From a virus, in the IMG/VR virus record IMGVR_UViG_3300018048_000077, positions 1-22,416 of that record: 22,416 bases of DNA, one strand, 5' to 3'. Each line of letters opens with the position of its first letter. Position 1 is the stretch's first letter. Below the pieces are notes generated by a model. The model was given only the letters and a program-made list of their open reading frames with translations. It did not search any database and was not told where the DNA came from. The position numbers and the translations under genes are program-made. Shown here piece by piece: positions 2 to 14,500 of the stretch.

Positions 2-385
2 AAGCCTGACATCGTTATTGCTGACATGGCTGACAAGTTCACCATGAAGGGCAGCTATACGGCTGCACACGAGGCTCTGAAGGCCATGTACGTGCGCTTT
101 CGTATCATTGGCAAGCAGTATGGATGCTGCATCTTTGCAATGTCGCAGATGTCTGCTGAAGCCGAGGGCAGGGTGATGGTCAATCAGTCCATGCTCGAAG
201 GCAGCAAGACAGGCAAAGCTGCTGAAGCAGACATCATGTTCTGCCTGACAAAGAACCCGATGGTTGAAGGACAGGACATCGATGACACAGAGCGACACTG
301 GGTGGTTGTAAAGAATAAGCTTACAGGTAAGCACGGGATGGTGCATACGCATCTGAACCCAGACACTGCCACGTTTAGTGTATAA
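2..385 (+). CDS. DnaB-like replicative DNA helicase, C-terminal fragment (cut by window start)
   Basis: The open frame runs in from the left edge, so only about 127 C-terminal residues are present and the true start is outside. It reads as the end of a RecA-fold replicative helicase of the DnaB/T7 gp4 type, which unwinds duplex DNA ahead of the polymerase. Visible marks are a Walker B-like strand ending in acid (PDIVIADMADKF), a strand followed by Ser-Gln (CIFAMSQMS, like DnaB motif H3), a helix with GKAAEADIMFCL (like H4, where DnaB has an acidic residue before a hydrophobic strand), and a final strand VVVKNKLTGKHG resembling the DnaB 'KNR.G..G' segment. The Walker A motif would be upstream. 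The gene opens the replication module, and the DNA polymerase lies two genes downstream. A RadA/KaiC-type ATPase is an alternative, but the context favours a helicase. Confidence 0.75.
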   Translation, partial: KPDIVIADMADKFTMKGSYTAAHEALKAMYVRFRIIGKQYGCCIFAMSQMSAEAEGRVMVNQSMLEGSKTGKAAEADIMFCLTKNPMVEGQDIDDTERHWVVVKNKLTGKHGMVHTHLNPDTATFSV

Positions 386-387
386 CT

Positions 388-399
388 ACTGTTGACAAA
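388..399 (+). repeat. Intergenic 12-base motif, copy 1
   Basis: ACTGTTGACAAA sits just after the helicase stop codon and just before the ribbon-helix-helix gene. The identical 12 bases recur at 2628-2639 just after the polymerase stop. It contains a perfect sigma70 -35 hexamer (TTGACA, 392-397), but no convincing -10 lies 16-18 bases downstream. It may be a regulatory site rather than a complete promoter. The 3' end of this copy also overlaps the AAAGGG sequence (397-402) that could be the ribosome binding site of the next gene. Confidence 0.4.
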
Positions 400-408
400 G
401 GGTATGAT

Positions 409-597
409 ATGCCAAGACCAAGATTAATCGAGGAAGACAAGCGCGTTTACAATTTAGTTCTGGGCGAAACGATGTTTGGTGAACTGCATCAAATTGCATT
501 CGATCAGTCAAAGCAGCAAGGAAAGATGGTCAGTGTCGCACAACTGATCAGGGAAGCAATCACGAGGTATTTAGATGAAACTAACACTGGACGTTGA
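409..597 (+). CDS. Small ribbon-helix-helix (Arc/MetJ/CopG-type) protein
   Basis: This 62-residue protein matches the ribbon-helix-helix pattern. It has a basic N-terminus, a short strand (residues about 13-18, RVYNLVL), a helix (GELHQIAFDQ), a turn, and a second helix with the family-typical run VAQLIREAITRYLDE. Proteins of this fold dimerise, insert the paired strand into the DNA major groove and usually act as repressors or antirepressors. The start is supported by AAAGGG six bases upstream. The last 23 bases overlap the start of the DNA polymerase gene, so the two are probably translationally coupled. It lies beside a 12-base motif that is repeated elsewhere, and an autoregulatory role is possible but is inference. 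No specific target can be read from the sequence. Confidence 0.6.
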   Translation: MPRPRLIEEDKRVYNLVLGETMFGELHQIAFDQSKQQGKMVSVAQLIREAITRYLDETNTGR

Positions 598-2626
598 AAA
601 CACTGTCACGCGCCGTGACGGCAAGCTGCACCTAGACCCATTTGAGAAAGAGAACTCGCTGGTCATGGTGGGTATACTCACCGATCAGGGCGACGAAACA
701 ATTGTATCTTTCGATCATGCAGAGTGTTCGTCTCCCGATCAGGAGTCTTTTGACTTGGTGCAGATGCTCCTTGACGAAGCCACAGTCCTGATTGCGCACA
801 ATGCTGCGCACGATCTGGCGTGGATGTGGGAGAGCGGGTTCAAGTATGATGGTCCTGTGTTTGATACGATGCTGGTCGAGTACGTCATCCAGCGTGGCCA
901 GAAGCAGCCGCTATCTCTCGAAGCCTGTGCCGAGCGCTACGAGCTTGAGGTGCAGAAGCAAGACACGCTGAAGAAATATATGGCGGATGGGGTGAGCATC
1001 CGTGACATTCCTTACAACGAACTTTGTGATTATCTGGCCGCTGACCTTCACGCTACGCAGCAACTGGCTGACAAGCTGAACCTCTATCTAAATACGCAAG
1101 AGGGCAGTGGCCTGATGGATACGGTGCTGCTGACCAACTGCGTTTGTAAGACCCTTACACGTATCTACTGTAACGGCTTCAAAGTAGATCGTGCTGCACT
1201 TGAAGAAGTGACGGAGCAGTTCACAGCCGAGAAAGAACAGATCGAGGCAGAGCTTCAGCGTGACATCAAGGAACTGATGGGTGATACGCCCATCAATCTG
1301 AACAGCCCAGAGCAGCTATCGCAGGTTATCTTCAGTCGCAAACTCAAGGACAAGAAGACATGGCCGGATCGCTTCGATCAATTTATGCCTATCGGTTTGT
1401 TTCGGCAGACAGTCAATGCCCACACCAGCATCGTGTTCAAGACGAAGGTGCGGCAGTGTAAGGACTGTAGCGGAGCAGGGCGTAAGCGTGTCCGCAAGAA
1501 GGACGGCTCACTGGGCAAGGCAGTTCGCATCTGCCAGACATGCGAGGGTGAGGGCGTCCTGTATGACGACACACGAGATGTTGCTGGCCTGAAGTTCAAC
1601 GCCCCATCTGCCAAGTGGGTTAGTGCCAATGGCTTCGGCTGCTCGAAGGGCAACCTTGAGCATCTTGAGGGTGTTGCCCGATCTAAACAAATGAAACGAG
1701 CAGAGGCGTTCCTGTTGAAGGTCCGCCGTCTGTCTGCACTCGACAGTTATCTATCTAGTTTCTGCGGTGGCATAGCCACCTTCACCAAGCCTGACGACAT
1801 CCTTCATGTCCGGCTGGTGCAGCAGATGACATCGACAGGCCGTCTGGCAAGTCGTGAACCCAACCTTCAGAACATGCCACGCGGCGGCACATTCCCTGTG
1901 AAACGAGTCTTCGTATCACGATGGGAAGGTGGCCAGATCATGGAAGCTGACTTCGCTCAGTTGGAGTTTCGTGTGGCTGCATTTCTGAGCCAAGACGGAG
2001 TAGCAATTGAAGAAGTTTCTACTGGATTTGATGTACACTCATACACCGCTCAGGTTATTACCGATGCTGGTCAGCCTACGGATCGACAGACAGCGAAGGC
2101 GCATACATTCGCGCCGTTATATGGAGCGACGGGCTTTGGAAGAAGCCCAGCGGAAGCAGAGTACTACGAACACTTCACGCAAAAATACAAAGGCATCGCA
2201 AATTGGCATGCCCGATTGGCTACGGAAGCTCTGACAACAAAGAAGATACGCACACCATCTGGACGAGAGTTCAGCTTTCCTGACGTTGTTCGCAAGCGGG
2301 GCGGGAGCGTTAGCTACTTTACGCAGATCAAGAACTATCCCGTTCAGTCGTTTGCAACTGCTGACATCGTTCCGCTTGTACTGCTGCAACTAGAACAGGC
2401 GCTTCTAGATAGCGGCTTACGTAGCTTGATTGTAAACACTGTGCATGACTCGTTTGTTCTGGACATACACCCTGAAGAATTTGGCCAGGTTATGCGGGTA
2501 ATTAAACAAGTGTCGGATCAAATGACAGACAGAATAAACATGGCATTCAATATCGATCTCAATGTTCCGATGCTGCTCGAAGCAAAGGCTGGTCCGAACT
2601 GGCTTGAGACTGTTGACGTGGAATAA
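575..2626 (+). CDS. Family A DNA polymerase with 3'-5' exonuclease and an inserted DnaJ-type zinc-finger segment
   Basis: This is a 683-residue replicative polymerase. The proofreading domain (about 1-170) shows Exo I as LDVENT (D6, E8), Exo II as AHNAAHDLAW (D80) and Exo III as YLAADLHAT (Y153, D157). The polymerase domain (about 370-683) shows motif A MEADFAQLEFR (D459), motif B RQTAKAHTFAPLYG (R504, K508, F512, Y516) and motif C VHDS (H624, D625). F512 aligns with E. coli Pol I Phe762. Motif C has Ser where Pol I has Glu883. Between the domains, residues 295-327 carry two CxxCxGxG units (C295/C298 and C320/C323), as in the DnaJ central zinc-binding region. This insert is known from HMO-2011-type phages and its role is unknown. 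The start ATG follows GAGG (564-567) by seven bases and overlaps the upstream gene. Confidence 0.96.
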   Translation: MKLTLDVENTVTRRDGKLHLDPFEKENSLVMVGILTDQGDETIVSFDHAECSSPDQESFDLVQMLLDEATVLIAHNAAHDLAWMWESGFKYDGPVFDTMLVEYVIQRGQKQPLSLEACAERYELEVQKQDTLKKYMADGVSIRDIPYNELCDYLAADLHATQQLADKLNLYLNTQEGSGLMDTVLLTNCVCKTLTRIYCNGFKVDRAALEEVTEQFTAEKEQIEAELQRDIKELMGDTPINLNSPEQLSQVIFSRKLKDKKTWPDRFDQFMPIGLFRQTVNAHTSIVFKTKVRQCKDCSGAGRKRVRKKDGSLGKAVRICQTCEGEGVLYDDTRDVAGLKFNAPSAKWVSANGFGCSKGNLEHLEGVARSKQMKRAEAFLLKVRRLSALDSYLSSFCGGIATFTKPDDILHVRLVQQMTSTGRLASREPNLQNMPRGGTFPVKRVFVSRWEGGQIMEADFAQLEFRVAAFLSQDGVAIEEVSTGFDVHSYTAQVITDAGQPTDRQTAKAHTFAPLYGATGFGRSPAEAEYYEHFTQKYKGIANWHARLATEALTTKKIRTPSGREFSFPDVVRKRGGSVSYFTQIKNYPVQSFATADIVPLVLLQLEQALLDSGLRSLIVNTVHDSFVLDIHPEEFGQVMRVIKQVSDQMTDRINMAFNIDLNVPMLLEAKAGPNWLETVDVE

Positions 2627-2627
2627 T

Positions 2628-2639
2628 ACTGTTGACAAA
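2628..2639 (+). repeat. Intergenic 12-base motif, copy 2
   Basis: ACTGTTGACAAA begins two bases after the polymerase stop and is identical to 388-399. It precedes a separate TTGACT box (2641-2646) that makes a better -35 for the TATAAC at 2663. This copy may therefore be an operator or activator site next to a promoter rather than the promoter itself. Confidence 0.4.
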
Positions 2640-2640
2640 C

Positions 2641-2668
2641 TTGACTACAAAACAAGATCTGGTATAAC
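2641..2668 (+). promoter_or_regulatory. Sigma70-like promoter with extended -10, upstream of the 291-residue protein gene
   Basis: TTGACT (2641-2646) and TATAAC (2663-2668) are separated by 16 bases. The -10 is preceded by TG at 2660-2661, giving TGGTATAAC, an extended -10 arrangement. Transcription would start near 2675, leaving a leader of about 24 bases before the ATG at 2699. This is the longest gap in the replication module (2627-2698) and the only one before position 8282 that holds a full-looking promoter. It suggests that the genes from here on are boosted separately by host RNA polymerase. Confidence 0.55.
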
Positions 2669-2698
2669 TACGGATTCTTTACACAAGTGGAAAAGCTA

Positions 2699-3574
2699 AT
2701 GACGACACTGACAACAATCGACGAAAACAATTACGAAGCTATGGCTTTGATGATGGGTGTAAACCCAAACCAGAAGGCCAAAGGATCAACCCTGCCGCGT
2801 TTGCGGATTTGGAATCAGGGTGTAAAAAACAAAGACGGAAAGCGTTCCGTCGAGGTAGTGCCAGCAGGATTCTATCGTCTGGAAGACCCAGACAAAGCTA
2901 TGTACTTTGCAGAGACGGTTACCATCCGTCCGTTTCTGCAACGCTTTATGTACAAGCGTTACAATGCAGATAAGAACGATTTCACCAAGACGGTTATGCA
3001 CGAGAATCTGCAAGTCGATCTGAAAGATACGGCTGGTGGTTTCAACTGCGGTAAGCCAGCAGGTTACATCGAAGACTTCGATAGCCTGTCAGATGAGATG
3101 AAAGAGGCGATCAAGCAGATCCGCCGTGTTCGTGTCATCCTCGGTGAAGTCGAGATGAACAATCCAATCGACGAAAACGGCAACGCCGTTGAGGTCGGCA
3201 CAATGCCTTTCATCTGGGAAGTGGACAACAAGACCGCCTTCAAAACTATGGGCGAACCGTTCAACCAGTTGGGCAGGCAGCGCAAGCTTCCGATTCAACA
3301 TAAGATCACACTCGACACATCTGAGCAGGAGCTTCAGACAGGTGGCGCTTTCTTCCTACCAGTGCCATCTCTCGACCTGACGAAAGCTGTCGTGATCAAT
3401 GATGAAGATCAGAAGCGCTTCAGTGACTTCCTTGAATGGATCAAGTCGTACAACGAGTACGTCATCTCAAGCTGGACAGATAAAAGCAGTCAGAGTGCAA
3501 CAGCCGACGAAGAGAAGCTGATGTCTACCGTCTCTGCCGATGTCTTTATCGATGTTGAAGATGACGCAGCTTAA
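2699..3574 (+). CDS. Replication-module protein of unknown family, possible ssDNA-binding protein
   Basis: I do not recognise this 291-residue protein by motif. Translation from ATG 2699 gives MTTLTTIDENN. A GTG at 2687 would add four residues but has no ribosome binding site, whereas GGA sits about seven bases before 2699. The protein is soluble, mixed alpha/beta, rich in charged residues, and ends in an acidic tail (ADVFIDVEDDAA) of the kind ssDNA-binding proteins use to recruit partners. It lies between the DNA polymerase and an exonuclease-like gene, behind its own promoter. Phage T7 needs an ssDNA-binding protein (gp2.5) alongside the same set of enzymes, and no other gene here fills that role. 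That function is inference from position and tail only. A recombination or annealing protein, or a nuclease partner, is equally possible. Confidence 0.7.
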   Translation: MTTLTTIDENNYEAMALMMGVNPNQKAKGSTLPRLRIWNQGVKNKDGKRSVEVVPAGFYRLEDPDKAMYFAETVTIRPFLQRFMYKRYNADKNDFTKTVMHENLQVDLKDTAGGFNCGKPAGYIEDFDSLSDEMKEAIKQIRRVRVILGEVEMNNPIDENGNAVEVGTMPFIWEVDNKTAFKTMGEPFNQLGRQRKLPIQHKITLDTSEQELQTGGAFFLPVPSLDLTKAVVINDEDQKRFSDFLEWIKSYNEYVISSWTDKSSQSATADEEKLMSTVSADVFIDVEDDAA

Positions 3575-7782: not shown

Positions 7783-8281
7783 TTCCGAAAAGAAGATAGC
7801 TACAGCGCTTGCAAGAGCGCGGTATGCTAACTCGCGAAAGAACAAGCTAAAGAAGACAGACCTACCAAAGGCTTCTGTACTTGATCCGGATATAGAAGGC
7901 GTGATGTCAGAGCTTGCTCTGTGCAAATACTTTGGTGTGTACCCAGATCAAGTGTTTGAAATAGGTATAAGATCCGCAGCCAACGGAACAGATAAAGGTG
8001 ACGTAGTCTACGGCGATCTATGTATCGACGTTAAAAGCACGAAGCATACAAATGGCCGCTTGTTTTCTATGAAGGAAAACCAGGCGGTCGATTTGTTTGT
8101 GCTGATGATTGGCAGGCGCGGCCAGTACAGGGTGGCAGGATGTATGTACGCATCAGACCTGTACAAAGAAGCTCGATGGGGGCATCACGGCGTGTTCAAG
8201 AAACCCTGCTATGCTGCTGAACAACATGAATTAATACCCTTTAATAAAGTATTCCCCGACTTGATTATGCAAGCTAGTTAA
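7760..8281 (+). CDS. Putative PD-(D/E)XK nuclease-like protein
   Basis: This 173-residue protein has a plausible restriction-endonuclease-fold core: a helix with acid (VMSELALCKYFG, E51), a strand GDVV (D81) and the catalytic-type strand CIDVKSTK (D90-V-K92), followed by further strands (VDLFVLMIG, YRVAGCMYA). The spacing E...D...DxK is usual for this superfamily. Its substrate is unknown; candidate roles are host DNA degradation or DNA repair. It is distinct from the Cas4-like enzyme at 3561, because it lacks the QxxxY motif and Fe-S cysteines. ATG 7760 lies inside the end of the previous gene. The last bases include the -35 box of the promoter that serves mazG. Confidence 0.7.
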   Translation: MLQLTLDDSEKKIATALARARYANSRKNKLKKTDLPKASVLDPDIEGVMSELALCKYFGVYPDQVFEIGIRSAANGTDKGDVVYGDLCIDVKSTKHTNGRLFSMKENQAVDLFVLMIGRRGQYRVAGCMYASDLYKEARWGHHGVFKKPCYAAEQHELIPFNKVFPDLIMQAS

Positions 8282-8289
8282 TTTATACT
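8261..8289 (+). promoter_or_regulatory. Sigma70-like promoter upstream of mazG
   Basis: TTGATT (8261-8266) and TATACT (8284-8289) are spaced by 17 bases, close to the host consensus. Transcription would begin near 8296 and give mazG a short leader of about 15 bases. The -35 lies in the coding end of the previous gene. A further TTGACT at 8291 has no matching -10. Confidence 0.5.
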
Positions 8290-8310
8290 TTTGACTAATG
8301 GATTTACGTC

Positions 8311-8794: not shown

Positions 8795-11555
8795 GTGCAA
8801 GTCCACCTTTGCGCATCATAGGTACACCTTTGCCCTCTACAAGATCTTTGAACTCGTCTGTGAACTCTATAGCCATGTTCTTACCATCTGCGTCATCAAG
8901 CTCGATTGTAGCCTTCTTGACGGGATCGCCCAACGCTCTCAAGAATTCATCTACCCGTTTCGGCATGGCACGATCATACACATCTGTGTACCCATCATTG
9001 ATAGCGCCGAAGTCAAATGAAGCATCCATCTTCAGACGTTTGTTGGCCATAATTTCGCCGCCTACAGCGCCACCAAAAACCTGCGTTGTACTCGCTCTTC
9101 TAGCGCCATCATTACCCTGCTGAATTTCATTAGCTGTTTCAAAGATATTGCGATCACTTGATCCAATAAATAGACCGTCTCTATCGAACAGAGCATAGTG
9201 AGGTGATTCTCCACTACCTGTTTTGCGTAGCTTTACAACTTTGACATCACCCTGCGCTAGCGTTCTTCTGACGAAAGCCCTCTGGACTTCAATAAGGCGA
9301 TCTCTTGTATCCGCATTTGGTCCGATCTTTAAATCAGCAGTGTCGTAGTCCGCTTGTGTAAATTCGTTGGGATTTATGTTGCTACGGAAAAAATCATCTT
9401 GTGTGGAATTCTCTATAAATGATGTCGCCTTCTCCCCTGTCCGCGTAGTCACGTCAATATTCTCATATTGCGTAAACACCGCTCTGCCATTGACGTTGCG
9501 GACTTGATCTGCGTTGGCAAACGCAATCCCATCATAACCTTCCATGACAGCCCTTCTAGTAGCCAGAGCTAGAACCATGCGTTGATAGTTATTATCCCTT
9601 CCGGGCAAGTCCATAGGCATGTCTGCTTTGTCCGAACCGAAGGCGTCTGACTGTACTTCTTCAACTAGCAGATACTTCTTATCACCTTTGACCCTGTCAG
9701 TAGTGCGATAGTGGGCAACCGTATTCTCAGCAAAATTGCTGCCTGTATCCACGCCCTCAAAATGTCGAGCTACGTAATCGAAATTAGAAATGTCTCCCTG
9801 CAGCGCTTCGAGATATCTGTCGTAGACTTCAGACGGTTCACTACGATCTAGCTGGTTAATGATACTTTGATCATTCTGACCTTTAGCTACTGCCCTGCTG
9901 CGGATAGCCGCTTCCATTTCGCCCATAGCGTTTCTATGCAAAGGCACAGAGGACGTAAGCGTCTTCAGCATATTTGCTGATTGAGTGGGCAGCACTCCCA
10001 GTTCTTCAACAGCATCCCTGAATTTACGTGCGAAGATATCCCCACCACCTTGAAGCTCAATGTCAGCTATGATTCCGGCAATCTGCGGGGCTGACGTTGT
10101 CATTTCCATGAAAAGCATGGCATCGCCCTGTGCGTACTCAACGATGTAATCGTAGAAATGGTGTTCGGCCCACTTCTCGTAAAATTCATCTGCGTCCTCA
10201 AAGCCCAGCCCTTTGTCAACCAATTCCGTGTGCTTCATTCGCACTACATTCATGATGTCTTCATCAAGTTCCCCCAGAGGTACTCCGGCATCAGCCATCG
10301 CAAGCTCTGTTTCATCGATTAACCTAGCTTGGTCTTCGGTAAGTTCTTGGCTTACACCACGTCTTACATTGCTCGTGACTTGAACGGGGAATTCACGGTA
10401 ATTGAAAGTTTCAGCATCACCTCTTGCAATTTCTCCTGTTGTCACCCTTCCTTTTTTATCCGGTATGACAAGTGAAAAACCACCGTACTGAGGTGTTCCT
10501 GCCACATCACCCAGCCTAGCTGCTGCAAAGTTACTTCCTGTTCCCGGACGCAGGGTAAGGTCGCCTGTACCGTCTACGTCATAAAAAGGCTGCACAGCCG
10601 AATTCGGATTGTAAGAAAGCTCTCTGTCCCGGATCGTAATAGGACGCTCTCGAAGCATCGTCTGTATTTCTTCAAGCGAGAAAGTGTTGCTTACGTCATC
10701 GTTTATCTCAGGAAGGCGTAGCGATAACTCGTCAGTACGAATGCCCTGATCACGGAAAAACTTCAGCCACTGTCTACTATTAGCTTTTTCCGGAGCATTT
10801 TCGAGAGACGCATCTAGGCGGCTGTACAGACCTGCTTCGTCGGGTTCTACATCTATCTTGACGCGATTAGGTTGCGTAACCAAAGAAGGTGCGGCTGTTG
10901 CTTTGCGTGTCTTCTTAGTCTCAGCACTGATCATGCTGATAGCTGCACCGACAGGCTTATCGTCGTCTGCAAACTTATCTACACGCTCTGCAGCCCTCTC
11001 AGCCGCCTCTGGATCAAGGTCGAACAGTTTACGCAGTCCATCCTGTATCTGATCACCGTACTTAGACACGGCTTTTGAACCGAACTTCAGGCCTGTTCCA
11101 GCACCGAACATGATGCCACCTGGAATAGCTCCTGCGCCTGTAGCAGCTAGGTATGCACCACCAAGCTGCAGAGCATCACCAGCAACACCTACGGTCTTCA
11201 GTGTAGTATCGAGTGTCCTGCCTTCTTTTACGTCTTCAGCAAGGGACGGTATGGGCTTTACTTCTTCGCCTGTCGTCAGTGCGCTTACAGGGTTCTCTAC
11301 GCCTGCACCAACTGCTTCAGCTATGCCAGATCCACCCAGCATAGCGACAGCAAGGTCTGCGCTATCCAGTGCGAACTGCTTTGCACCGGCAGCAAACTGC
11401 TCGTTGCTAGATGGTCTGTAGCCAGTGTCGTACTGGCTGACCATGCTATCAACCTGCTCTTGCTCATCCATCAATGCATCGACATCAAGACTAGGCTTTT
11501 GCTTGCCCAGTGCTTCATTCATGATTTGATCTATGTACATATCTTTTGCGGCCAT
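8772..11555 (-). CDS. Large virion-associated protein with a domain seen in phage polyvalent proteins
   Basis: A 927-residue protein and the last gene of the leftward late operon. Residues about 60-160 contain Gly/Ala-rich hydrophobic stretches (around AVAMLGGSGIAEAVGAGV and GAIPGGIMFGAGTG) that could contact a membrane. Residues 243-305 resemble a helical module common in large phage virion proteins (LYSRLD...QWLKFFRDQGI..DEL...SLEEIQTML). Residues about 595-690 hold the familiar set FAENTVAHYRTTDR, LLVEEVQSD and GYDGIAFA, which recurs in phage polyvalent and MuF-associated proteins ('EEIQSDW...GYD.IAW'). I know no proven activity for that set. The C-terminus has MMRKGGLA, a short tail seen on several marine phage structural proteins. 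The ATG shares one base with the upstream stop (TAATG). It is probably packaged and ejected as an internal virion protein, by position. Its 3' end doubles as the terminator for the opposite strand. Confidence 0.75.
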   Translation of the reverse strand: MAAKDMYIDQIMNEALGKQKPSLDVDALMDEQEQVDSMVSQYDTGYRPSSNEQFAAGAKQFALDSADLAVAMLGGSGIAEAVGAGVENPVSALTTGEEVKPIPSLAEDVKEGRTLDTTLKTVGVAGDALQLGGAYLAATGAGAIPGGIMFGAGTGLKFGSKAVSKYGDQIQDGLRKLFDLDPEAAERAAERVDKFADDDKPVGAAISMISAETKKTRKATAAPSLVTQPNRVKIDVEPDEAGLYSRLDASLENAPEKANSRQWLKFFRDQGIRTDELSLRLPEINDDVSNTFSLEEIQTMLRERPITIRDRELSYNPNSAVQPFYDVDGTGDLTLRPGTGSNFAAARLGDVAGTPQYGGFSLVIPDKKGRVTTGEIARGDAETFNYREFPVQVTSNVRRGVSQELTEDQARLIDETELAMADAGVPLGELDEDIMNVVRMKHTELVDKGLGFEDADEFYEKWAEHHFYDYIVEYAQGDAMLFMEMTTSAPQIAGIIADIELQGGGDIFARKFRDAVEELGVLPTQSANMLKTLTSSVPLHRNAMGEMEAAIRSRAVAKGQNDQSIINQLDRSEPSEVYDRYLEALQGDISNFDYVARHFEGVDTGSNFAENTVAHYRTTDRVKGDKKYLLVEEVQSDAFGSDKADMPMDLPGRDNNYQRMVLALATRRAVMEGYDGIAFANADQVRNVNGRAVFTQYENIDVTTRTGEKATSFIENSTQDDFFRSNINPNEFTQADYDTADLKIGPNADTRDRLIEVQRAFVRRTLAQGDVKVVKLRKTGSGESPHYALFDRDGLFIGSSDRNIFETANEIQQGNDGARRASTTQVFGGAVGGEIMANKRLKMDASFDFGAINDGYTDVYDRAMPKRVDEFLRALGDPVKKATIELDDADGKNMAIEFTDEFKDLVEGKGVPMMRKGGLAQKKAPRQ

Positions 11556-14500
11556 TACTTAAACTTGCCTCTTTCGGCTTTGGCATACGCATTGCCAGCA
11601 CGGTATGCACCTAGCTGTTCAACGGTAGCCCCGAAATTTTTTATGTAATATTGGTTGACTACAGTTCTAATTCTTTGAGGGGTTGCGCCCCATTGCTGCC
11701 TGTCAAATACAGAAAACTGTCTTTCCTTACCTGTTTCGTCGGTGACAGTTTCCGTATCCATAGAGCTTTTTCCGATTGCTATTTCACGAGCAATACTTCG
11801 GGCTGTGGCATACGTGTCGATTATGTAATTTTTCTTTTCAGCATCAGTCATGTTCTGATACGAACCACTAGATATATTCACTAAGTCAGGCGCTACTATT
11901 CCGAGTTCTTTAGTCAGCAGCCGGTTTGCTTCTGCGTCACCTGTAGATGGATTGATTTCGTTGTAGGTAATACCAAGTCTTACAATTTCGTCTTCTAAGC
12001 CAGTACGAGCTTCTGTCTTTCTAATACCTGTAAAGGTAGTAACTAGAGGACTTTGATACGTAAGGTTGCCGGGTCTTGTTGCGCTCTCCAAAGGCGGTCT
12101 ATCTTGATTCATGTAAGGAATGCCGCGTGTAGCCGCTGTCACGAAGGAGTCGGCAAAACGACCGCCTGTAGTGTTTCCACGCTGTCCTCTCATGTCGCGC
12201 ACAATGGCTTCTTCGCTATCAAAAGTGCGAACAATATCTCGTACTAATCCGGTTACAAAGTTGACGTTAAGTGGCCCACCAAACAATTCACCAAAGAAGT
12301 TGCCTGCTAATTCAGCCAACTTTTGATTTCCAATTGAGTCTTTGCTGGCTGTTCCGCCAAGTTCACCTTCTGTTTGTGCTGCCTTGAACAAGCCATCAAT
12401 GATGTAAAGCTGCGTTCCCGCCAGCCTAGTTCCTAATAAGCCTTCAACAATGTCACGGGTAGGCAGACTCTTGCCTGTACCCATTTCACCCACGTCTTCA
12501 CGGAAATCGGAGTCTCCAATGGTATTGTTGGTAAGGTTGCCAAGACCTCTTCTAGCAGACCTGAGCAGACTTTTTTCTACGGGTACATCGGGGACATCTA
12601 CTCCCAGTAGTCTGGGGTATTTAACGAGTATGTCTGCAACCAGAAGGTAGGGGGCTAAGGGGAAGAAGGGCCGTAGATCGCCTATCTTACCTTCTTCGTC
12701 TCTGTACTCGAACCACTTCACATCTTGGTTTGCAGCCCGATGTGCTACCGATTCAAACAGCATGTATGTTCCGATTATGCCTTTGGACACATCGGTCATG
12801 CCTTCATTCAAAAACTTTTCATTGCCAGTGGCAGCGCCTCTAGCAAGTTTGTAAACGCCTTTGCCTGCCTTGCCACCAAGAACATAGTTAGCTGTAAAGT
12901 TTAGGGCAGATACAGTAAATCGAGGGAAGGTAAAGACACTCGTGCCAATGAACGGCATTCGCTCTACCAATTGAACAAAGCGACTTTGCCAAGGGCCAGT
13001 AGGCATGTCAGCAAACGTAAACTCTAATGCTTCTCTAACTGCCTTCTGCTGGAACTCCAGCGGAACTTTGCCCTTTTTAGCTATTGTCTCTGCAATGCTC
13101 AGGCCGGTCTGCCGTCTAAGCTGCTTTTCAAGAGCAGACGTATATATGGCTCGTCTAACAAGGCCGTCGTGTGTCATGTTGAAGTAATTCAACAGTCGCA
13201 CAGGGGCAGCTAGTTCACCATCTCCGATATCTGTCAGGCTTCTAGATATCTGTTGTAGTAGCTTTGGGTTGCTGCCGAGCGTTGCTGCTACAACATCTTT
13301 ACTAAAGCCCTGATCGTTGAGATTGCGCACCATGCCAAATGCATCTGACAAGGCAGAACCAAGACTATAATCAGGTACGTCCTGACCTAGTGCCTTCTGC
13401 GCTTTACGAATGGCGTAAAAACCTGCTGCATCGATAATGTCTGCAGCCGCATCCATAGTTCCTCTAATGCCAGTAGTTCCAACATTTCGGATTAGTGTAG
13501 GAATCTGTGAAACCAGAAGACCTCGCCGGTTTCTATCCAGCGTCATTGCTGTTCCGGTGGGATTGGCGAAGGCTTGAACGCCCCTTTGAATTATGCCGAC
13601 AGGTTTCTTATCGGTCAGGTAAGCTGTAAGTGCATCTGTACGTGTCCTATCAAGAACACCGGCTCTGGCGAGTTTCTTTGCAAACTGGCTAGCGGCGTTC
13701 ATCTGTCGAGCAGCATCGCCTACAGTTACACGGTATATCTGTGCAAACTCTTCAGCAGATACGCCGTTTCTTGCTAGAGCACCACTCAGAGCGTCTTCGT
13801 CCAACCGACCTACAAGATCCTCGTTTTGCAATACACGGAATACTGTATCTGAAATCTGCTCATCGGCTACTCGCTCACCAGAGGGGGTTCGTAGCTGAAG
13901 AGCGAGTTCTTTGTTTGGCAAGTCCTCAAGCATTTCATTGAGGAAATCATAAACATATCTGTTGATATCCAGTCTTAGTTCTGGGCTTATCATGTCACCC
14001 GATTCACCGGCCATCCTATCCAAAATAGCCCTGCCACGAGGCGCATCAAAGGGTGCGTCTGGCGTATTCGGAGATGCTTTTACACGCGCTGTACGGACTG
14101 GATCTGGATCGAGTGAATCAATGGCTACTTGTTCAGGTGTTCTGTTGCCATCGTTACGAGCTAGTGCGCGATCCGCATTAGCATCGAGCAGGGCTTCTGT
14201 TCCTTCATCCGCTAAGTCTCTACCAAAGACCGAGTTTACCCCCTTTGATAAACCAAGCCCAATGCCCTGCGCCGCTGCACTGCCTGCTCCAGAAGCACCA
14301 AATGCTATGCCGGTACGACCAAAATCGTATTCGTCGCGAATGCCTGTTTCTTTCTCTACCTTTTGCAGACCTAAGTCCATGCCAGCACCAATAGTGCCGT
14401 CCGTCAAAAACGGAACAGCACCGTATCTGGCCATACCCAGCATCAGTCCTTTTACACCCTGCTTTGCAAGTTGCTTGGCAGCAATACTGCCAACACCAAG

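Follow-up and report, generated by a model that had tools for sequence, protein, structure and literature searches.

What kind of signal is a short motif that recurs, letter for letter, in two intergenic gaps of a phage replication module? The question is raised by IMG/VR record IMGVR_UViG_3300018048_000077, a 22,416-base virus fragment from an HMO-2011-type phage, the whole of which is referred to here as the window. A first-pass annotation made from the sequence had taken the motif for a set of operators read by a small ribbon-helix-helix (RHH) protein encoded beside it, or for a phage-specific promoter module. The explanation that we favour, with a probability of about 0.6, is that the gap after the DNA polymerase gene (gap 2) holds a sigma-70 promoter, and that a box peculiar to the clade of the window may be the site of one regulator acting on the early genes.

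HMO-2011-type phages are described in PMC9038755 as dominant and broadly distributed in the sea. The window was assigned to this group on its gene order and on its family A polymerase with a partial DnaJ domain; the Pfam family DnaJ_CXXCXGXG scores 23.9 bits there against a cut-off of 32.7, and both CXXCXGXG motifs are present in the sequence. Its first 4.5 kb share 69-71% nucleotide identity, over a query coverage of 12-35%, with HMO-2011 and the Roseobacter phages CRP-345, CRP-1, CRP-603, CRP-207 and CRP-2, and a search of genome_contigs with the polymerase returned no relative. The late region of the same species is provided by IMG/VR contig G001 (36,333 bases), which is 99.9% identical over 16.3 kb; a composite of this species, made of three pieces of which L104 is the late-side contig, covers 44.4 kb.

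The probable promoter at the end of the polymerase gene

Sigma-70 promoters with an extended -10 (TGn) combine a -35 near TTGACA with a -10 near TATAAT at a distance of 16-18 nucleotides (nt). Gap 2 shares with this class the hexamer (TTGACA/TTGACT), the spacing of 16-17 nt, the TG-n-TATAAC and the sense of the downstream operon; in the window the elements read TTGACT-N16-TATAAC with a TGG extension. The reading that fits it best is a host-type sigma-70 promoter for the operon after the polymerase gene. A promoter of the same type, TTGACA-N17-TATAAC, precedes the major head protein gene of the same species (L104 12305). The promoter module suggested by the first-pass annotation finds support in gap 2, although its type is the host-type sigma-70 promoter of a wider phage group and not that of a phage polymerase.

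The 3' ends of the polymerase genes were compared in 154 loci among the matches listed, namely 77 of 80 from each of two lists of at least 80. Three loci of the first list (L070, L071 and L081) were dropped as ending before the polymerase stop, and three of the second as ending early (L198) or as already counted (L014 and L019); L101 and L149 are one contig. The polymerase end is in view in 152 loci, L007 and L048 being the other two. A TAYAAC -10 starts no more than 2 nt past the polymerase stop in 134 of these 152 loci, with a -35 of at most one mismatch at 16-18 nt, and this -35 overlies the codons of the last polymerase residues (WLDT in most). The arrangement thus differs from the standard one in that most HMO-2011-type loci examined have their -35 within the preceding gene and draw the TGn from its TGA stop. 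The stop codon is TGA in all 134 loci, compared with 37 of 90 early plus-strand genes of HMO-2011, CRP-1 and CRP-345, and since it abuts the -10 its TG falls in the extended -10 position. All four named genomes examined (HMO-2011, CRP-345, CRP-1 and CRP-207) show the arrangement; the -35 of HMO-2011 is TTGACG, and in CRP-207 the spacing is 16 nt and the -10 starts two bases past the stop. These four resemble the window in gene order, in the DnaJ-insert polymerase and in the TATAACTA promoter at the polymerase end.

Nine further loci, from the clade of the window and that of L101, carry both -10 and -35 within the gap, which brings the total to 143 of 152. One further locus, L006, has a weak -35. 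The remaining eight loci (L058, L060-L064, L069 and L079), which form a side branch, lack a -10 of this kind at the polymerase end, and the frame of the next gene seems to start there before the polymerase stop.

Codon usage offers a measure of the constraint on these letters. Thirty dereplicated representatives of 67 promoter-bearing polymerases, all from the first locus list, were chosen for a -10 at the stop and not for a -35. The leucine under the -35 is CTT in 30/30, the only single-codon column among 35 conserved leucines (next best 0.76), and the aspartate is GAC in 30/30, the only wholly GAC column among 17 conserved aspartates (next 0.97). The third base of the following threonine, which falls outside the hexamer, is variable. 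The frozen leucine and aspartate codons argue that the promoter is constrained as DNA, independently of the protein. Together with the invariance of TATAACTA in 7/7 clade sequences, they indicate selection on the promoter letters.

An invariant box in the clade of the window

In the clade of the window the promoter has a different position. The hexamer at the old coding place is no longer TTGACA in any of the seven lineages (TTGAGA in the window; TAGACA, TAGATA, TAGAAA, TTTCCA or TTACTA elsewhere) and stands 44-54 nt from the -10, which itself sits 27-36 nt past the polymerase stop; the -35 lies in the gap, unlike that of most HMO-2011-type loci. Conservation supports the view that the gap-2 promoter of this clade replaces the promoter embedded at the polymerase end elsewhere. 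Alignment of gap 2 revealed two invariant blocks, ACTGTTGAC and TATAACTA (both 7/7), at variable spacing. L152 and L153 have their -35 within the box, at a spacing of 16 nt. The other five lineages (the window, L006, L101, L150 and L151) have the box 25-26 nt from the -10, with the -35 place taken by a second hexamer (TTGACT, TTGCTT, TTGACA, TAGACA and TTGACA, respectively; exact in 2/5). That the box varies less than the -35 beside it speaks for a function in addition to the binding of RNA polymerase.

The same sequence forms part of the motif that was noticed first. The 12-base ACTGTTGACAAA stands exactly at 388-399 and 2628-2639, on the plus strand and 1-2 nt past a stop codon in both places, as had been noted; gap 1, described there as large, is only 23 nt long. 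With up to one mismatch it occurs at these two places only in the record, the reversed control giving 0. The full shared word is the 13-nt TACTGTTGACAAA (387-399 and 2627-2639), and a Markov null built from the three early gaps produced a shared word of 13 in 3 of 5,000 trials. The core TTGAC[AT]AA has three plus-strand copies in 22.4 kb, one per early gap (392, 2632 and 8291), and a sole minus-strand copy at 10219, inside a late gene; under two nulls of 20,000 trials each, no trial had it in two or three of these gaps. On the mismatch scans, reversed control and nulls, chance was rejected as the source of the exact pair. The relative of the motif reported ahead of mazG is also present, as TATACTTTTGAC at 8284-8295. 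The accompanying TATAACTAC is exact at 381-389 and 2663-2671, but its gap-1 copy shares two bases with the motif and runs across the helicase stop (GTA TAA). The idea that it is a second conserved element of gap 1 was rejected, since L152 and L153 carry TATAGTGAAAA there.

A motif search across the whole genome and its relatives, which the first-pass annotation had put forward as a check, found the core in three early gaps and the box enriched in the gaps of the clade and not in those of 82 other HMO-2011-type records, all longer than 7.5 kb. The pattern [CA][TA]GTTGAC occurs 18 times in 4,149 gap nt against 18 times in 73,690 coding nt in seven clade loci, 4 times in 946 against 8 times in 25,540 in four loci of the L101 clade, and 5 times in 35,967 against 227 times in 973,153 in the 82 other records. 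For ACTGTTGAC the counts are 16 in 77.8 kb (clade), 4 in 25.2 kb (L101 clade) and 31 in 1.43 Mb (others, a larger set than the 82 records), and for its reversed control 0, 0 and 30; the clade thus carries the box at about tenfold the density of the others, in which it matches the control. HMO-2011, CRP-345, CRP-1 and CRP-207 differ from the window in belonging to the set without this enrichment.

Further copies lie elsewhere in the same genomes. ACT[GA]TTGACAAA occurs four times in the species composite, always on the gene strand (388, 2628, L104 1609 and L104 12301); the last two are late promoters, that at 12301 ahead of the major head protein gene. A minus-strand tRNA-Arg (tct) gene was also observed at L104 1298-1374, and two sigma-70-type promoters (1400 and 1613, in the region 1400-1640) point away from it. 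In L153, TACTGTTGACTAA is present three times, at the integrase end (1935), in the leader of the RHH-like gene (4813) and in gap 2 (7047). The integrase was identified in L153 and its relatives in L007 and L152 by tblastn; at the integrase end of these three lineages, those with that end in view, TACTGTTGACTAA is half of a 21-bp inverted repeat, ACTGTTGACTAAGTCAATAGT.

The gap between integrase and primase of L153 contains, at 1948-2239, a sequence resembling the 5' portion of a tRNA-Lys gene and surrounded by several TTGAC boxes; ARAGORN lists no tRNA there. This is likely to be a phage attachment site. Boxes acting as arm sites of the integrase are suggested only by this tRNA-like stretch and would leave gap 1, gap 2 and mazG unexplained, and this candidate was set aside.

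In leaders, no -10 follows the box. The gap-1 TTGACA was rejected as a -35, as promoter scans and the sequence show no -10 at 16-18 nt downstream of it. The TATAAC before the gap-1 box takes in the GTA-TAA of the helicase and is TATAGT in L152 and L153; promoter scans found no -35 upstream of it. The whole gap-1 arrangement, TATAACNACNGTTGACANAGG, is present in four stretches of viral_contigs, all from the species of the window or L007. Ahead of the helicase, a terminator-like hairpin was seen in four loci (L005 1100-1195, L007 3105-3185, L152 3470-3575 and L153 3473-3568) with TTGAC[GT] in or beside its loop; it is followed by T-rich sequence and a possible -10, so that the terminator and the -35 of the next promoter seem to share letters.

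Table 1. Positions of the features discussed, in window coordinates.
Feature	Position	Strand	Remark
TATAACTAC across helicase stop	381..389	+	At best a weak -10 without -35; TATAGTGAAAA there in L152, L153
Motif copy 1, TACTGTTGACAAA	387..399	+	17 nt (TTGAC to ATG) before RHH-like gene; runs into Shine-Dalgarno region AAAGGG
Gene of 62-amino acid RHH-like protein	409..597	+	Overlaps polymerase start; beside motif copy 1
Family A DNA polymerase gene, DnaJ-like insert	575..2626	+	Most other HMO-2011-type loci examined have the promoter conserved in the group at its 3' end
ACTGTTGAC in last polymerase codons (T-V-D)	2609..2617	+	19 nt before gap-2 copy; same in L152, L153; absent in L006, L101
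Gap 2	2627-2698	–	Holds the putative promoter after the polymerase gene
Motif copy 2, TACTGTTGACAAA	2627..2639	+	ACTGTTGAC part invariant in 7/7 aligned lineages
Putative -35 hexamer, TTGACT	2641..2646	+	16 nt from -10; same sequence in L003-L005
Putative extended -10, TGG + TATAACTAC	2660..2671	+	TATAACTA invariant in 7/7 aligned lineages
Gene like HMO-2011 gp13	2699..3574	+	291 amino acids, acidic C-terminus; first gene after the promoter
mazG gap: TTGATT-N17-TATACT, then TTGACTAA (8291-8298)	8261..8298	+	20 nt before mazG start

Possible readers of the box

Since it is clade-specific, gap-enriched and invariant, the box could plausibly have a common reader, and we consider it a likely, but unproven, clade-specific regulatory site. 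Our explanation would run as follows. In other HMO-2011-type phages the -35 falls in the Leu-Asp-Thr codons and the TGA stop forms part of the extended -10. In the clade of the window the 9-bp box ACTGTTGAC would have appeared in the gap, where it supplies the -35 (L152, L153) or precedes, by one helical turn or so, another -35 that varies more. The host sigma-70 RNA polymerase would transcribe from TTGACT-N16-TGG-TATAAC, starting near 2673-2680, and the promoter would drive the operon after the polymerase gene, with the gene of a probable gp32-like single-strand-binding protein first, then nuclease genes and those beyond. Further boxes with this core are found in the leaders of the RHH-like gene and mazG and at the integrase end, with no -10 at promoter spacing after them. 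One regulator may bind the boxes, on the promoter or in a leader, and so modulate the early genes of the clade.

Three rival explanations have to be weighed. According to the first, on which we would place less than even odds, the copies are unrelated look-alikes with no common protein: gap 2 would contain sigma-70 -35 sequence, one copy in use and one a relic 9 nt upstream, and gap 1 and mazG a translation leader of TGAC[AT]AAGG type beside the Shine-Dalgarno region. The usable promoter of gap 2 agrees with this, as do the late promoters of the same species, which begin ACTATTGACAAA, and the occurrence of ATGACAAAGG at the same distance before the ATG in helicase leaders (L005, L007, L153, L101 and L150) and in polymerase leaders (L101 and L150, relatives that lack the RHH-like gene there and keep a similar leader). 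Look-alikes would not account for the conservation of ACTGTTGAC 25-26 nt from the -10 in five lineages, nor for the facts that L153 has the exact 13-mer three times, that a 21-bp inverted repeat stands at the integrase end in L007, L152 and L153, and that other records show no gap enrichment although their phages use the same promoter at the polymerase end. In the second explanation, dimers of the RHH-like protein would bind the TTGAC boxes and shut their own operon and the gap-2 promoter, as the omega protein of pSM19035 does with direct or inverted heptads; this appears unlikely in our estimation. Its best point is that the leader box tracks the gene, GTTGAC standing 17 nt before the start in the gap-1 leader of 5/5 lineages with the gene and ATGAC in the two aligned leaders without it. 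The boxes also form direct and inverted repeats, and the 62-amino acid protein, modelled with a predicted local distance difference test score (pLDDT) of 77, has a strand (residues 12-17) followed by two helices (20-37 and 43-60); a re-alignment of only 31 chains to this model placed NikR first, with Z 4.7 over 44 residues. Foldseek gave a best E of 4.0 to an entry that is not RHH by its title, PDB sequence searches were unproductive, and Pfam RHH_1 scores 16.5 bits (E 0.0082), below its cut-off of 20.5, matching three of six homologues at E up to 1.

The distribution of the gene speaks against such a reader in gap 2. In the polymerase tree the lineages with the RHH-like gene group together (92/92) as sisters of L101, L150 and L151 (97/95) within one clade (100/100). 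These three retain an intact gap-2 box, and the gene was not found in their DNA in view; the box stands on both sides of the tree and is thus independent of the RHH-like gene at that place. Moreover, eight loci with distant homologues, several of them near-copies (L087, L088, L229-L231 and L233-L235), carry the gene in tight operons with no box beside it, some of them holding TGTTGAC elsewhere. By tblastn, no relative of the gene was found in the examined parts of HMO-2011, CRP-345, CRP-1 and CRP-207. Of the operator set first proposed, the recurring clade-specific, gap-enriched, invariant box stands; an RHH reader is unsupported, and the protein is only a candidate for the role. The third rival, a promoter specific to the phage and served by an RNA polymerase or sigma factor of its own, we consider very improbable. 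The motif is indeed repeated, oriented and gap-bound, but its elements match a sigma-70 -35 and extended -10 at 16-17 nt spacing, no RNA polymerase family was found among ten window proteins scanned, and the partner element is missing from gap 1; there is no sign of a phage-type RNA polymerase promoter.

Several observations weigh against the reading that we prefer, a sigma-70 promoter in gap 2 with the box as the site of one regulator. Gap 1 is without a convincing promoter on which an operator could act. In leaders the box adjoins the Shine-Dalgarno region, where relatives keep only TGACAAAGG, and part of the sequence may therefore be a translation leader. Against the motif itself stands that looser scans show no more than chance: with two mismatches allowed the 12-mer was found 4 times (2.74 expected), and with one mismatch TATAACTAC was found 3 times (2.44 expected). 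The gap-2 site was missed by a stock promoter scan that accepts only a -10 ending in T and that revealed no promoter excess (7 found, 11.7 expected). With up to one -35 mismatch, a scan of the named genomes and related sequences, the window among them, gave 17 sites, polymerase-end and head-gene promoters included, against 5 in the reversed control; any one site may thus have arisen by chance. Another 38 phage stretches also show the tandem pattern of gap 2 (45 by pattern scan, 7 of them in the clade), and L006 has only a poor -35, TTGCTT at 16 nt. In L101, L150 and L151 the end of the polymerase frame, final codon plus stop (TGT TGA), forms part of the box and may explain some of its constancy there. 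As to sampling, the loci came from peptide-pattern scans and include near-identical contigs, sites in L152 and L153 are not independent of each other, nor are those in the window and L007, and gaps were called by a crude open reading frame rule.

Two known systems offer parallels. The closest in arrangement is that of the operators and stoperators of Cluster A mycobacteriophages such as L5 and D29 (PMC5712189 and PMC9283540). In the window, too, an oriented, gap-bound site recurs, with boxes at gene junctions on the coding strand. The mycobacteriophages differ in their consensus, GGTGGMTGTCAAG, and have 24-26 sites, compared with five clear boxes in 44 kb of the species of the window (392, 2632, 8291, L104 1609 and L104 12301); the set is not filed as a member of that class. 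The omega/ParB system of pSM19035, in the account drawn from PMC9499535, combines an RHH protein with 7-bp repeats, direct or inverted, that overlap promoters. It differs in box sequence and in its contiguous runs of repeats, the boxes here being mostly single. The clade, in which an integrase gene is seen in L007, L152 and L153, might have a stoperator-like immunity circuit of its own, in which one regulator, RHH-like or an unseen repressor, would read oriented ACTGTTGACWAA boxes over -35s and in the short leaders of early genes and silence the replication genes of the prophage; we regard this as quite an unlikely conjecture. No described repressor for HMO-2011-type phages came up, and no search was aimed at one.

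The operon behind the probable promoter and its possible control

The first gene after the gap-2 promoter resembles gp13 of HMO-2011. Its product is conserved in the group (23 sequences aligned, 42-65% identity to the protein of the window), and no Pfam or PHROG family matches it above cut-off. A model with a pLDDT of 74 had no significant Foldseek match, the top rows being other folds at E 0.006 and above. In a re-alignment of 973 chains, the first four rows were gp32 of T4 or RB69, with Z from 7.6 to 6.3, which is under the caution level of 8; the best, the T4 gp32 core, aligned with Z 7.6 over 163 residues at a root-mean-square deviation of 3.8. Most of the 29 re-alignment rows are single-strand-binding proteins or relatives with an OB-fold (oligonucleotide/oligosaccharide-binding fold). 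The gp32-led re-alignment and the acidic tail make a gp32-like role likely, and the protein is probably a gp32-like single-strand-binding protein.

The word promoter was not found in the main text of PMC9038755, PMC6918029 or PMC8528129. Our findings suggest that in most of the loci examined a promoter can be read directly off the 3' end of the polymerase gene, which would provide a handle on the timing with which the replication operon is switched on. The clade-specific box, in turn, may offer a concrete way into the control of lysogeny in HMO-2011-type phages.

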